Made by a program: the position numbers and the translations under genes. DNA of 64,000 nt, from assembly GCF_000016525.1 (NCBI RefSeq), contig NC_009515.1:1018501-1082500 (forward strand). The letters run 5' to 3'. The notes below the pieces were generated by a model. That model did no database searches. It was not told where the DNA came from and saw nothing but the letters and a program-made list of their open reading frames with translations. The stretch's first letter is position 1, and each line of letters starts with the position of its first letter. Positions 11,335-32,838 of the stretch are shown piece after piece. The stretch comes from Methanobrevibacter smithii ATCC 35061 (lineage in GTDB: Archaea > Methanobacteriota > Methanobacteria > Methanobacteriales > Methanobacteriaceae).

Positions 11335-11664
11335 TAAATAAGCTCCATTTCGTAGATTAAAAAGTCAAAATAATAAAATATAAAATTGACTACATAAACA
11401 ATTATTAATTATCATGATTATTTATTATAAATGTATGCATTTAAATTTGAAGCAATAAAAAATTATTCAAATTTAAGAAAGTAATTGATAAACAAAAATT
11501 AACTATAAATTTTTCCCAAATTATTTAAAAATAATTACAATTAATCTAAAAAATTTACATCACATGCATAATCACTTAAACAAATCATAAAGCTCATTTT
11601 TAAAATAGAAAGATTTAATAACAACAAATACAAAAATTTAGATACACCTAAAAAAGTGATGTAA
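11335..11664. promoter_or_regulatory. Divergent intergenic region between ehbA and the ACR3-like gene
   Basis: 330 bp without a gene and extremely A+T rich. The left part must hold the ehb operon promoter. At 11553-11563 and 11656-11666 there is an 11-bp perfect inverted repeat (ATTTACATCAC / GTGATGTAAAT) whose right arm covers the ribosome-binding site and the AT of the ATG of the ACR3-like gene. A small palindrome ATCATGAT lies near 11413. I see no tRNA or long hairpin. Confidence 0.45.
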
Positions 11665-12614
11665 ATGGAAATTTTAGAAAAAGCTGAACCGGCAATAATC
11701 TTTTTAGCCATTCTGTTAGGGCTTGGATTAAGTAACCTCCCTCTTTTAACATCCAATAGTGGATCTTTAATAACTTTATTTTTTTATGTTTAATGTTATA
11801 TGGGCTGTTTCTGGAAGTTCCGCTTAAAGATTTAAAAAATAGCTTTAAAAATGTTAAATTCACATCCGCAAGCCTAATAATTAACTTTATCTGGACACCG
11901 CTTCTAGGATATTTTCTGGGAGTTCTATTTTTAAAAGGAAATATAGATATCTTAATCGGGTTTTTTATGCTTATACTAACCCCATGTACTGATTGGTACT
12001 TAGTATTTACAAAAATGGCAAAAGGAAATTTAAATTTGAGTTTTTCAATACTTCCAATAAATTTAATACTTCAGATTGTATTACTGCCAATATATCTAAT
12101 AATCTTCTTTTCAACCAGCAATTCCATGAATTATTATGAATTAGCTTACTCAATTTTAATTGTTATTGTAATCCCCTTTATTTTAGCGCAGCTGACAAAA
12201 TACATCTTAAAAAACAAAACAAAAATAAATGAAAAAATAACCCAACTTTTTTCAAAGTATCAGACAATATTTCTAGCTATTGCAGTATTTGGAATATTCA
12301 ATAGCGAAGGAAGAATTGTTTTTAATAATTTAAACTCAATTTTACTAATATTCATTCCATTAATCTTGTTTTTTATCATAAATTTTATCTTAGATTTTAT
12401 AGTAGCTAAAAATATGAAATTTAATTATGAAAACTATACAAGTCTGACAATGACCACTTTAGCTCGAAATTCCCCATTAGCCCTAGCTATTGCAGTAAAT
12501 TCATTTCCTGAAAGTCAATTAATATTAATTGGACTGGTAATTGGACCTTTAATAGAATTACCAGTTTTATATGGAATATCAAAGCTATTATTAGCAATTA
12601 AAAAAAGATATTAA
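11665..12614 (+). pseudogene. ACR3/BASS-type transporter (arsenite efflux-like), frameshifted
   Basis: Two frames together make one 316-residue protein. The ATG at 11665 (after GTGATG) gives 42 residues, ending at TAA 11791. The rest continues in another frame to 12614. The break lies at a run of seven T (11779-11785); one extra T would join LITLFF to LCLMLYGLFLEVPLK and restore the frame. The protein has about nine to ten membrane spans and the ACR3-like stretches NFIWTPLLGYFLG and LTPCTDWYLVFTKMAKGN. It could be a real mutation, a sequencing error, slippage-based expression or phase variation. Substrate is uncertain: the arsenite/antimonite efflux and bile-acid-symporter families are related, and no ars regulator or reductase adjoins it. 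Confidence 0.7.
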
Positions 12615-14306: not shown

Positions 14307-16283
14307 TTGAAAAAATATATCAAACAGTTAATTAAGCTTATAAATTATGAAAGAGATGCCGAAATTGAATTAATGACTAATGAAATAAAAAATTTGTCTC
14401 CAAAGAAAAGAGAATCATTAGGAAGAGCCATCAATAAAGTAAAAGGAAAATATTTAGGAAAACAGTTGGGTTCTCAAATTGTACAGTTCGGAAGGTCTGA
14501 AAAAATCGAAACAGAAATCAGTGTTGGAGACATGGTTCTAATTAGTACAGGTTATCCTTTAAGAAGCGATTTAACAGGAACAGTTGTTGAAAAAGGTGCC
14601 AGATTTATTAAAGTAGCTTTTGAAAAATCAATTCCAAAATGGGCTCTTAAAAAGAAAGTCAGAATTGATTTATATGCAAATGATGTTACTTTCAGACGAA
14701 TGGAAGATAACCTACTGCATTTAAACACAAAAGGGAAAAATGCTCTTGAATACTCCTTGAAAAAAAGAGACCCTAAAGAAAACAAGAAAGAAAAATATAT
14801 TGATTTTATAGACAAATCCCTTAATGAGTCTCAAAAAAATGCTGTTAGAAATGCAGTAAATACTGAAAATTTCTTTTTAATACACGGTCCTTTTGGAACA
14901 GGAAAAACAAGAACATTAGTTGAGTTAATCCAACAGGAAGTAAGGCAGAACAATAAAGTCTTAGTTACAGCTGAAAGCAATAGTGCAGTTGATAACATAT
15001 TAGACAGACTATCCCAAAATAAAAAATTAAAAATTACAAGATTAGGCCATCCCCAAAGAGTTTCAAAAGAAAATATCACATATTCTCTGGCTTATAAAGC
15101 TGAAAATCATCAATTGACCGGTAAAATTAATAAAAATTACAAAAGGATAGAACAAATAAGCGAAACAAGAGACCGATTCACCAAACCAACTCCTCAATAT
15201 CGCAGAGGATTTAGTGATTCAGATATTCTTTATAATGCATCAAAAGGCAAAGGTGGACGTGGAATAAATTCTTCCAAAATGGAATCCATGGCTAACTGGC
15301 TTTTAGAAAATGAAAAAATTAGTGAAATTCATGACAAAATTAAAAAACTTGAAAATAAAATAGTTAAAGATATTATTAACAGCAGTGACATTATTTTATC
15401 AACCAACTCCACAGCAGCTATTGAAGAAATAGCCAGAACAAAGTTTAATGTGGTAATTGTAGATGAAGCTTCCCAGGCAACAATTCCAAGCATTTTAATT
15501 CCATTATCCAAGGCCAGAAGATTTATTCTTGCAGGTGATCATAAACAATTGCCCCCAACGATAATAAGTAAAAAAGCACATTTTCTTGAAAAAACCTTAT
15601 TTGAAGAGTTAATTAAAAAATATCCCAATAAAGCAAGTTTACTGAATGTTCAGTATAGAATGAATAGCTTTTTAATGAAGTTTCCAAATTCAGAATTTTA
15701 CAATGGCAATTTGAAAAGCGATTCCAGTGTTGATGATATAAATCTTGACGAAATTATTGATTCGGAAGAGTTGTCCCGTCTAAAAGAAAGTGATGTTGAA
15801 AAACAGCTGCACAACAATTTGAAACCTCTATTATTCATTGACACGTCTAATTTAAAAAACAATGAAGAAAAACATTTAAAAGATTCCAAATCCATTATCA
15901 ACCAGAGCGAAGCGGCCATTGCTACTTCAATAGCTAAATTTTACCTGGGAACTGGAATTAATCCAAAGGATATTGGAATTATAAGTCCCTATGCAGATCA
16001 AGTCAATTTAATCCAGGACAAAATCCCCATTGAAGTAAAAAGTGTAGACGGTTTTCAGGGCCGTGAAAAGGAAATTATAATCATTTCAACTGTAAGAAGT
16101 AATAAAAATGGAAATATTGGATTTTTAAAAGATTTAAGAAGACTTAATGTGGCAATTACCAGAGCTAAAAGAAAATTAATAGTAATTGGCAATAAAAATA
16201 CTTTAAAAGGAAATTCCACATACTCGAAATTAATTAAATTTTGTGCAAAAAATGATTTGTTGATAAATTTTAGGCATACCTAA
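14307..16283 (+). CDS. Superfamily 1 helicase of the Upf1/Dna2/IGHMBP2 type
   Basis: 658 residues. Helicase motifs appear in order: Q-like LNESQKNAVRNA, Walker A HGPFGTGKTRT (near residue 195), motif Ia TAESNSAVDNIL, Walker B VIVDEASQATIP (near 388), motif III LAGDHKQLPPT, motif IV LNVQYRMN, motif V VDGFQGREKEIIIIS and motif VI RRLNVAITRAKRKL. The N-terminal 150 residues include a small beta-barrel-like region (VGDMVLISTGYPL), as in archaeal relatives. It probably unwinds DNA or RNA in repair or RNA metabolism. The start is TTG at 14307, preceded by AAGGG at a proper distance. It ends where the promoter of the putative small RNA begins. Confidence 0.88.
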   Translation: MKKYIKQLIKLINYERDAEIELMTNEIKNLSPKKRESLGRAINKVKGKYLGKQLGSQIVQFGRSEKIETEISVGDMVLISTGYPLRSDLTGTVVEKGARFIKVAFEKSIPKWALKKKVRIDLYANDVTFRRMEDNLLHLNTKGKNALEYSLKKRDPKENKKEKYIDFIDKSLNESQKNAVRNAVNTENFFLIHGPFGTGKTRTLVELIQQEVRQNNKVLVTAESNSAVDNILDRLSQNKKLKITRLGHPQRVSKENITYSLAYKAENHQLTGKINKNYKRIEQISETRDRFTKPTPQYRRGFSDSDILYNASKGKGGRGINSSKMESMANWLLENEKISEIHDKIKKLENKIVKDIINSSDIILSTNSTAAIEEIARTKFNVVIVDEASQATIPSILIPLSKARRFILAGDHKQLPPTIISKKAHFLEKTLFEELIKKYPNKASLLNVQYRMNSFLMKFPNSEFYNGNLKSDSSVDDINLDEIIDSEELSRLKESDVEKQLHNNLKPLLFIDTSNLKNNEEKHLKDSKSIINQSEAAIATSIAKFYLGTGINPKDIGIISPYADQVNLIQDKIPIEVKSVDGFQGREKEIIIISTVRSNKNGNIGFLKDLRRLNVAITRAKRKLIVIGNKNTLKGNSTYSKLIKFCAKNDLLINFRHT

Positions 16284-16294
16284 ACTTTTATATA
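16280..16294 (+). promoter_or_regulatory. BRE/TATA promoter of the putative small RNA
   Basis: The sequence CTAAACT then TTTATATA (16287-16294) overlaps the helicase stop codon. The same TATA octamer stands before the tRNA genes at 31795-31802 and 32831-32838 (minus strand). A start site about 25 nt downstream would fall near 16317. No long open frame follows on this strand, so the promoter points to a non-coding RNA. Confidence 0.6.
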
Positions 16295-16316
16295 CCAGAA
16301 CATACCAAGTAAATAG

Positions 16317-16457
16317 TAGAGAGAAAAAGTACCAACATACTTTTGAATCTCTAACTCTTAATTGGGGGGATTTTTTCTTAAATGTAAAACCCATATAACT
16401 TTTCAACCTCAATTATAAGACCCCAATTAAGAGTTCTCTTCTGTCAAACTATTTTTT
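16317..16457 (+). ncRNA. Putative structured small RNA of about 140 nt
   Basis: From the predicted start near 16317 the transcript would contain a first hairpin in which AGAGAGAAAAAGTA can pair with TACTTTTGAATCTCT (to 16352). A long second stem follows: AACTCTTAATTGGGG at 16353-16367 is a perfect 15-bp inverted match to CCCCAATTAAGAGTT at 16421-16435, enclosing a 53-nt A+T-rich loop. A T-run at 16451-16456 would terminate it. I do not recognise it as SRP RNA, RNase P RNA or a C/D-box RNA. Alternatives are a bidirectional terminator shared with the minus-strand gene that ends at 16488, or a miniature mobile-element remnant. Confidence 0.5.
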
Positions 16458-16487
16458 ATTAAACTTAACAAAGAAATTATAATATTT

Positions 16488-17222
16488 TTATGAAATGCTT
16501 TCAAAACCTTTTGTAGTCAGTAATTTTACAAAAGAACCACTTGGAGACATTACAATATTTCCTTTAGAATATTCTTCTAGAGCTACCTTGGTCATTGTAC
16601 TTTTCTTAACTGGATCTTTAGAAGCTTCAGAAAGTGCTTTAACTAACACCATTACAGCATCACCCCTGGACATATTTCCAGTTATTCCATCATCCCTTCC
16701 ATGATATCCAGAGTAATTATCATTTTGTCTTACAATATCTGTTGCACCAAGATCCGTTTCAACCCCGTCAACTTTAAGTGGCCTAATTGAATCTATAATG
16801 GCATCCAATCCGTCATCATATATAATTACTACTGCATCAGCATGCATTCCAGTATTAGCTTCTACAATTTCCTTTGCATATTCCATACCCTGTTCCGGGC
16901 CATCCCACAGACAGTCATGAAGACGCATTGGCCCTTCAAGACCACCTAAAGCTTGTTTTGTAGGATGAGTCATTCCACCAGGATATACAGGAGTATAATT
17001 AGCTATAGTTCCATTTTCCAGTTTAACCATGTATGCCATATCTACACCACCACCAGGCTGTTCATCTTTGTCACTAGCCAGGACCAATATGTTTTTATCA
17101 CCTGAAGCCAGACTAGGACCTCCTAAAAAGAAACTTCCTACAAATGCAAATATCCCAATAATACATACAATAAGGATAAGTATAATCAGTTTTTTTCTTC
17201 TGTTCATATTCCCACATATCAA
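16488..17222 (-). CDS. Membrane-anchored extracytoplasmic protein, DUF4012-like
   Basis: 244 residues. One N-terminal membrane anchor (KLIILILIVCIIGIFAFVGS) is preceded by NRRKK, so the bulk lies outside the cell. The outer domain has KNILVLASDKDEQPGGGVDM and VYPGGMTHPTKQALGG, a pattern seen in methanogen proteins annotated as DUF4012 and distantly recalling LytR-CpsA-Psr domains that act on cell-wall polymers; that link is inference. Two starts are possible, ATG at 17222 or at 17207 (MNRRKK); the second has a GGGA just before it. It is monocistronic, with a long A+T-rich gap upstream. Confidence 0.65.
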   Translation of the reverse strand: MICGNMNRRKKLIILILIVCIIGIFAFVGSFFLGGPSLASGDKNILVLASDKDEQPGGGVDMAYMVKLENGTIANYTPVYPGGMTHPTKQALGGLEGPMRLHDCLWDGPEQGMEYAKEIVEANTGMHADAVVIIYDDGLDAIIDSIRPLKVDGVETDLGATDIVRQNDNYSGYHGRDDGITGNMSRGDAVMVLVKALSEASKDPVKKSTMTKVALEEYSKGNIVMSPSGSFVKLLTTKGFESIS

Positions 17223-17519: not shown

Positions 17520-18695
17520 ATGGACAAAGTAGTTCTTGCATTCAGTGGTGGATTAGACACTTCTGTTTGTGTTAAATTATTAGAAGAAAAATATGATGTT
17601 GAAGTTATTACTGCATGTGTAGATGTAGGACAAGGCGATGAAGAAATAGCTAAAGCTGAAAAAATGGCAAAAGAAATAGGCGGCTATAAACACTACACTA
17701 TTGATGCTAAAGAAGAATTTGCAAATGAATACATAGCTAGAGGAATAAAAGCAAATGCAGAATATGAAGGATACCCATTAAGTACTGCACTTGCAAGACC
17801 TTTAATTGCTCAAAAAATTATCGATATTGCCAAAAAAGAAGGAGCAACAGCTATTGCACACGGATGTACTGGAAAAGGAAACGATCAATTCAGATTTGAA
17901 GCTGTTATTTTAGCTATGTCTGATTTAGATATTATTGCACCAATCAGAGAATTAAACTTAACAAGAACTGAAGAACAAGCTTATGCTGCTGAAAAAGGCA
18001 TCAAATTAAACTCTGATAAAATTTACAGTATTGATGAAAACATTTGGGGAAGATCCATTGAGGGGGATATTTTAGAAGATCCTGCAAATGAACCTCCTGA
18101 AGAAATTTATGCATGGACTGCTTCTGCTGAAGATGCACTTGACACCCCTCAAAAAGTATCTATTGAATTTGAAGAAGGTATCCCAGTAGCTATAAATGGA
18201 GAAATGATGCCCCTTATTGACATTATTAAAGAAGCTAATAAAATTGCTGGTGAAAATGGTATTGGTAGAGTAGATACTATTGAAAACAGAATGATCGGAC
18301 TTAAAAGTAGGGAAACCTATGAAGTTCCAGGTGCTAAATTACTGATTGCGGCTCACCAGGCATTAGAGGAATTAGTACTTACTACTGATGAATTAAGATT
18401 TGCAGAGTACATGAGTACACTTTATGCTGATTTAGTATACAGAGCATTATGGCAAGAACCTTTAAGAGAAGATATCGATCAAGCTATTGACCATATGCAA
18501 AGAAGAGTAAGTGGTGAAGTTACAATGAAACTCTTTAAAGGTTCCATTGCACCATTAACCAGAGAATCTCCTTTCAGCTTACACAGTATTGAACAAATTA
18601 CTTTTGAAGATAAAGAAACTGATCAAAGAGAAGTTGAAGGTATGATCAAATACCACGGTTTGCAGGCTGCAAACTATCAAAAACTTAACAGATAG
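17520..18695 (+). CDS. argG: Argininosuccinate synthase
   Basis: 391 residues, the usual length. It joins citrulline and aspartate with ATP to form argininosuccinate, the penultimate step of arginine synthesis, in the cytoplasm. The ATP-pyrophosphatase P-loop [12 protein letters not shown] is at residues 6-17. Other family stretches are [15 protein letters not shown] near residue 118 and the C-terminal [14 protein letters not shown]. The start has a good GGTGATC site. It is a single-gene unit with its own promoter and a strong hairpin terminator. Confidence 0.97.
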
Positions 18696-32830: not shown

Positions 32831-32838
32831 TATATAAA
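32831..32838 (-). promoter_or_regulatory. TATA box of the tRNA operon
   Basis: TTTATATA on the minus strand, with an AAAACA BRE-like element upstream. The predicted start is near 32808, about 60 bp before tRNA-Asn. It probably drives Asn-Met-Glu-Leu-His and possibly hjc. Confidence 0.65.

Follow-up and report, generated by a model that had tools for sequence, protein, structure and literature searches.

What is transcribed from the promoter-like element at the end of a helicase gene in Methanobrevibacter smithii, where no reading frame follows? The window (the whole stretch of DNA that was analysed, 64,000 nt) belongs to a genome of 1,853,160 bases in one contig. Coordinates refer to the window, and features lie on the plus strand unless otherwise noted. 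The gene for a superfamily 1 helicase (AAA_11/AAA_12; 14307–16283) is followed by a TATA box, the octamer TTTATATA (16287–16294), and argG is located further downstream (17520–18695). A promoter at the helicase stop codon with no frame after it is what the first-pass annotation had described, and no plus-strand ORF of at least 30 aa starts within 16300–16480. The analysis below indicates that the region very probably encodes a conserved non-coding RNA controlled by an operator, although its transcription is inferred.

The predicted RNA

The predicted RNA extends from 16317 to 16457 (∼140 nt), where the 5′ end is inferred from the spacing to the TATA box and the extent is supported by the z score of the fold and by covariance model hits. 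The calculated folding energy is −32.4 kcal/mol, with z = −3.6 relative to shuffled sequences. Starting at the 5′ terminus the RNA forms a hairpin (16317–16353), in which 16317–16322 pair with 16348–16353 and 16325–16331 with 16338–16344; this folds in nearly all orthologs despite drift of the sequence. The strand then forms the 5′ arm of the main stem (AACTCTTAATTGGGG, 16353–16367), and returns as its 3′ arm (CCCCAATTAAGAGTT, 16421–16435). These arms are the 15-bp inverted repeat that had been reported as perfect, and on re-checking the match is exact. Between the arms is the conserved single-stranded loop CAACCUCAAUU, with the seed CAACCUCAAUUAU (16404–16416) that is the complement of the Shine–Dalgarno-like AAUUGAGGUUG. 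The loop is present as CAACCTCAA or CAACCUCAA in 46 of 51 loci, with a mean unpaired probability of 0.89. Following the stem there is a conserved single-stranded 3′ tail UUCUUCUG (16437–16445, UCUUCUGUC), found as UCUUCUGYC in 49 of the 51 loci with a mean unpaired probability of 0.88. The RNA terminates in a T-run, a putative archaeal terminator that is present in 48/51 loci. The run was correctly noticed earlier, but it occupies 16452–16457 and not 16451–16456, a difference of one base. The lengths of the orthologous RNAs are ∼93–144 nt, with a median of 130 nt.

The main stem is supported by compensatory changes among 49 sequences. In these, 96.6% of the cells of the 15-bp stem are paired, and 8 of the 15 pairs have changed on both sides. 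The number of stem cells changed on both sides is 34, compared with 4.5 in shuffled controls (none of 500 was as high), and the signal is lost when the partner strand is shifted by 1–3 columns. Absence of such covariation among relatives had been set in advance as grounds for abandoning the RNA. The compact RNA originally suggested, of ∼140 nt and having a promoter and T-run of its own, gains further support from its 51 orthologous loci (50 genomes), with transcription inferred; a discrete non-coding transcription unit with its own start and end is evident at the level of sequence only.

The RNA had been called undescribed, and this holds insofar as no Rfam covariance model matched above the gathering score. 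A C/D or H/ACA guide RNA was considered and rejected, as inspection of the alignment revealed no conserved C/D boxes or 3′ ACA box, and there was no match to an Rfam guide RNA at the gathering score.

The operator and its regulon

The promoter had also been termed tRNA-grade, on the basis that the same octamer precedes two tRNA units. The octamer in fact precedes a single tRNA array, once (32831–32838, minus strand), and is not special in itself, with 11 occurrences in the window where 17.6 are expected. The promoter is present, but the label misses the point. What distinguishes the promoter is the conserved operator of an iron repressor, the 16-bp sequence TTTAGGCATACCTAAA, a perfect palindrome located at 16269–16284 (unstranded) directly 5′ of the TATA box, with half-sites TTTAGG and CCTAAA flanking CATA. 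This is the most informative part of the locus, and was overlooked in the first-pass annotation. The palindrome overlaps the helicase stop codon and the BRE position. It fits without mismatch the published IdeR/DtxR iron-repressor consensus TTAGGNNNNCCTAA, which structural work on IdeR gives as the minimal site for iron-dependent repressors of the IdeR/DtxR type (PMC8464063). Perfect half-sites are found near the TATA box in all 51 of the 51 intact orthologous loci (50 genomes), and across the orthologs the operator is located 1–2 bp before that box, a placement suited to blocking the promoter. Given the conserved operator, the promoter is probably regulated rather than housekeeping.

The genome contains eight perfect copies of the 16-mer, compared with ∼0.2 expected from base composition. 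These are located 5′ of feoA, feoB, an ABC transporter gene and the RNA studied here, in repeated units beside feoB and in the fdhD/P-type ATPase intergenic region; Pfam confirms FeoA, FeoB and FdhD at the operator-bearing genes. A single DtxR-type repressor is encoded, having the three-domain architecture of the iron type in Pfam (Fe_dep_repress, PF01325; Fe_dep_repr_C, PF02742; and FeoA), and an operator site with one mismatch lies 53 bp 5′ of this only dtxR gene. The operator is well supported, by its match to the consensus, its placement, the cognate regulator and the sites at iron-uptake genes; metal-dependent binding of the regulator is inferred. The metal is inferred to be iron because the operator keeps company with feoA, feoB and other genes of the regulon; manganese is not excluded.

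Some individual boxes deserve mention. The region that separates the divergent fdhD gene from a small ORF plus P-type ATPase contains two DtxR-type boxes (L055, 2911–2968), which connect the maturation of formate dehydrogenase with the metal regulon. A perfect box (L056, 2700–2715) is located 22 bp 5′ of the ABC transporter gene, with a gene for an AraC-family regulator adjacent; a role of the transporter in siderophore or metal uptake is possible. Within the window a box with one mismatch (TTTAGATACACCTAAA, 11637–11652) is found ∼140 bp 5′ of a membrane-protein ORF (11793–12614).

Proposed action and candidate targets

We consider it reasonably likely, while well short of assured, that the RNA is a DtxR-repressed trans-acting sRNA, induced by iron starvation, whose loop masks ribosome-binding sites. 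This reading is built upon what has been established, i.e. the operator, conservation, structure, synteny, single DtxR and regulon context; the transcription, iron response, trans-action and targets are inferred. When iron is plentiful, the metal-loaded repressor would occupy the TTAGGNNNNCCTAA palindrome over the BRE position and exclude TBP and TFB from the adjacent TATA box. Under iron scarcity it would be released, and the RNA would be made alongside feoA, feoB and further regulon members. Repression in the presence of metal, and release in its absence, is established DtxR biology, and the location of the operator over the BRE position leads us to infer the same here. The RNA would then fold into the 5′ hairpin and the long closed stem presenting single-stranded CAACCUCAAUU, followed by the single-stranded UUCUUCUG tail.

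The conserved unpaired seed is complementary to ribosome-binding sites; its unpaired CAACCUC can pair with Shine–Dalgarno sequences of the form GAGGUUG. Since the loop is complementary to the Shine–Dalgarno-like GAGGUUGA, a block of translation is the most likely mode of action. The mRNAs affected might be those for dispensable iron-rich proteins, with the fdhCAB operon and hdrA as candidates.

Candidate targets were ranked over 369 start regions, taken only from sampled stretches of the genome. The ribosome-binding region of fdhC, the first gene of fdhCAB, ranks second of 369 for pairing with the loop; the first is that of rrp41, which is not an iron protein. The ribosome-binding site of fdhC carries GAGGUUGA in 6/6 of the genomes first examined. 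However, the site (GAGGTTGA) occurs equally where the RNA is missing and in another genus, so that it may be conserved for reasons other than pairing, and fdhC as a proven target was rejected. Across most genomes of the genus the fdhC start region (L174 and L180) keeps the GAGGUUGA form with diverged flanks, irrespective of the RNA. The hdrA gene carries GGAGGTTGA or GGAGGUUGA in 6/11 genomes that have the RNA compared with 1/7 that lack it; this sample is small, and the case for hdrA is suggestive only. Fe–S genes are not significantly over-represented among the pairing candidates (P = 0.06), with shuffled seeds doing as well in 20% of cases (369 sampled genes), and a raw search for the seed complement TAATTGAGGTTGA gave no enrichment over control. 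The ribosome-binding sites of fdhC and hdrA fit the loop, but the identity of the targets is not settled.

The difficulty with targets bears upon an alternative that is unlikely but not dismissed, in which the DtxR-controlled structured RNA acts through binding of a protein or by another route (an RNA sponge, for example) and not by pairing with ribosome-binding sites. No target co-varies with the RNA, and conservation of the loop, the stem sequence and the tail exceeds the needs of short Shine–Dalgarno pairing. Yet the conserved unpaired segment contains the anti-Shine–Dalgarno-like CAACCUC, as in sRNAs that block translation (cf. the C-rich regions of IsrR; PMC9410917).

Distribution, other readings and known systems

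At E < 1e-6, BLAST detected the element in 26 of the 36 genus genomes sampled, and in no genome outside the genus. The covariance model found the RNA in 51 of 67 genus genomes, one of them degenerate (50/67 intact), together with a weak match in one genome of another genus. The operator counts given above are for 51 intact loci in 50 genomes, while the stem covariation is based upon 49 sequences. All the named relatives with the RNA are Methanobrevibacter. A diverged version occupies the corresponding position in two genomes of a second genus; the palindrome is perfect in one genome and has one altered half-site in the other. In both, the stem has been rewritten by compensatory changes (in one of them, CTCTCAATTGATG paired with CATCAATTGAGAG), and the UUCUUCUG tail is retained.

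One genome of the genus (G116) has a decayed copy of the RNA. Five near-complete genus genomes (G096, G010, G004, G114 and G106) lack both operator and RNA, and in these the helicase stop codon is closely followed by the TATA-like element of argG. The operator and the RNA are thus gained and lost together, as a single module, and absence of the RNA from several near-complete genomes indicates that it is dispensable and not essential.

The order helicase–RNA–argG is constant across the orthologs; nearly all have the same upstream neighbour, and in most relatives argG lies ∼250 bp downstream on the same strand. This arrangement could suggest a leader or attenuator of argG, i.e. an iron- or arginine-responsive 5′ region rather than an independent RNA. 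That is very improbable, and is already largely refuted. The RNA ends in a T-run and a separate TATA-like TTATAAATACTATTA then precedes argG, and it is exactly this promoter element that is kept in relatives lacking the RNA. Persistence of the argG promoter where the module is absent argues that the RNA is not its leader, and that argG is independent of the module. Moreover, argG is 0.8–1.25 kb away in M. smithii, L077 and L086, and in M. smithii it is located behind a gene on the opposite strand, an inserted DUF4012 gene (16488–17222, minus strand).

The DUF4012 gene next to the RNA is absent from most relatives. It and its paralogue (window 16488–17222; L054 6550–7266) adjoin the two predicted DtxR-boxed RNA loci of the genome.

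The inverted repeat, perfect over 15 bp in M. smithii, might instead be a DNA element without RNA function, such as the remnant of a mobile element or a recombination or invertible segment, but this is less credible again. G–U pairs are frequent in the stem (13 sequences have one at a single position), and these preserve an RNA stem yet break a DNA palindrome. The loop is oriented in the same way in all orthologs and the position of the element is the same genus-wide, and a search of the M. smithii genome found no second copy. The DNA palindrome or mobile element was rejected on the G–U pairs, the stem covariation and the lack of another copy. The least tenable reading, that the promoter leads to a small protein as DtxR-controlled promoters usually do, was rejected upon a survey of ortholog frames, there being no conserved reading frame within the RNA (the longest ATG frame is 0–33 aa, differing among orthologs, with none in 20/49) and a structural pattern of change.

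Two genomes of the genus (L264 and L258) have a different long hairpin between helicase and argG, with no DtxR box; the arms in L264 are CTTAATTAGGTGG with CCACCTAATTAAG. This hairpin may be a diverged relative that is controlled differently.

Bacteria have repeatedly arrived at small RNAs that are repressed by iron; among these, RyhB, PrrF and FsrA are Fur-controlled and dependent on bacterial chaperones. The archaeal RNA is a possible counterpart of such iron-rationing sRNAs, its iron response being inferred. It would share their functional class, that of an sRNA repressed by an iron repressor and lowering iron-using proteins, but they differ from it in the use of Fur and bacterial chaperones, and it has no Rfam match. 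Close parallels are with IsrR of Staphylococcus, which is Fur-repressed from an iron-repressor box at its promoter, and whose unpaired C-rich segments pair with Shine–Dalgarno sequences and block ribosome-binding sites; fdhA is one studied target (PMC9410917), just as fdhCAB is a candidate here. In contrast, the archaeal RNA has an archaeal promoter and DtxR in place of Fur, its targets are unproven, and no relation of sequence or synteny to IsrR was detected. MrsI of Mycobacterium tuberculosis is, as summarized in PMC9410917, an iron-sparing sRNA with predicted control by IdeR, a DtxR-family repressor, and without Hfq; it is bacterial, and no sequence relation was detected. The sRNA162 of Methanosarcina mazei is a trans-acting regulatory RNA of comparable kind in a methanogen, for which iron control is not described in the abstract (PMC3510493), and the RNA studied here matches no known family. 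If our reading is right the RNA works like IsrR or MrsI, yet belongs to no described RNA family. No described archaeal iron-repressed sRNA was found in the open literature, subscription papers being outside the search.

We put forward, tentatively and with the balance still somewhat against it, that Methanobrevibacter, including the main human gut methanogen, has an RNA-based iron-sparing system under a DtxR-type repressor, with an origin separate from that of the RyhB-type systems of bacteria, in which the single-copy RNA and multi-copy DtxR-boxed RNAs beside feoB would throttle iron-rich enzymes of methanogenesis, e.g. formate dehydrogenase and heterodisulfide reductase. If true, archaea reached the same wiring of iron repressor and sRNA with a DtxR-type repressor, and there would be a concrete way to approach the response to scarce iron in the dominant methanogen of the human gut, an organism that depends on Fe–S enzymes for its energy metabolism.

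The repeated units beside feoB comprise three tandem units of ∼300 bp between feoB and a DUF4012 gene (L054 5286–6200; G000 C1 about 563785–564700). Each has a DtxR box before a TATA box, with a second box ∼70 bp further on. Similar units, having hairpins and CU-rich loops, recur at several places per genome throughout the genus, including genomes that lack the RNA studied here. The L054 units have no Rfam match, and might belong to another family of small RNAs under iron control, one present in multiple copies. Located 3′ of the third unit is a Cys-rich ORF of 37 aa (MGVRPSCCETPKEETSKVKKNIKKVFNFFFGCCKNKK, L054 6210–6323) with a good Shine–Dalgarno sequence, a possible small metal-related protein.
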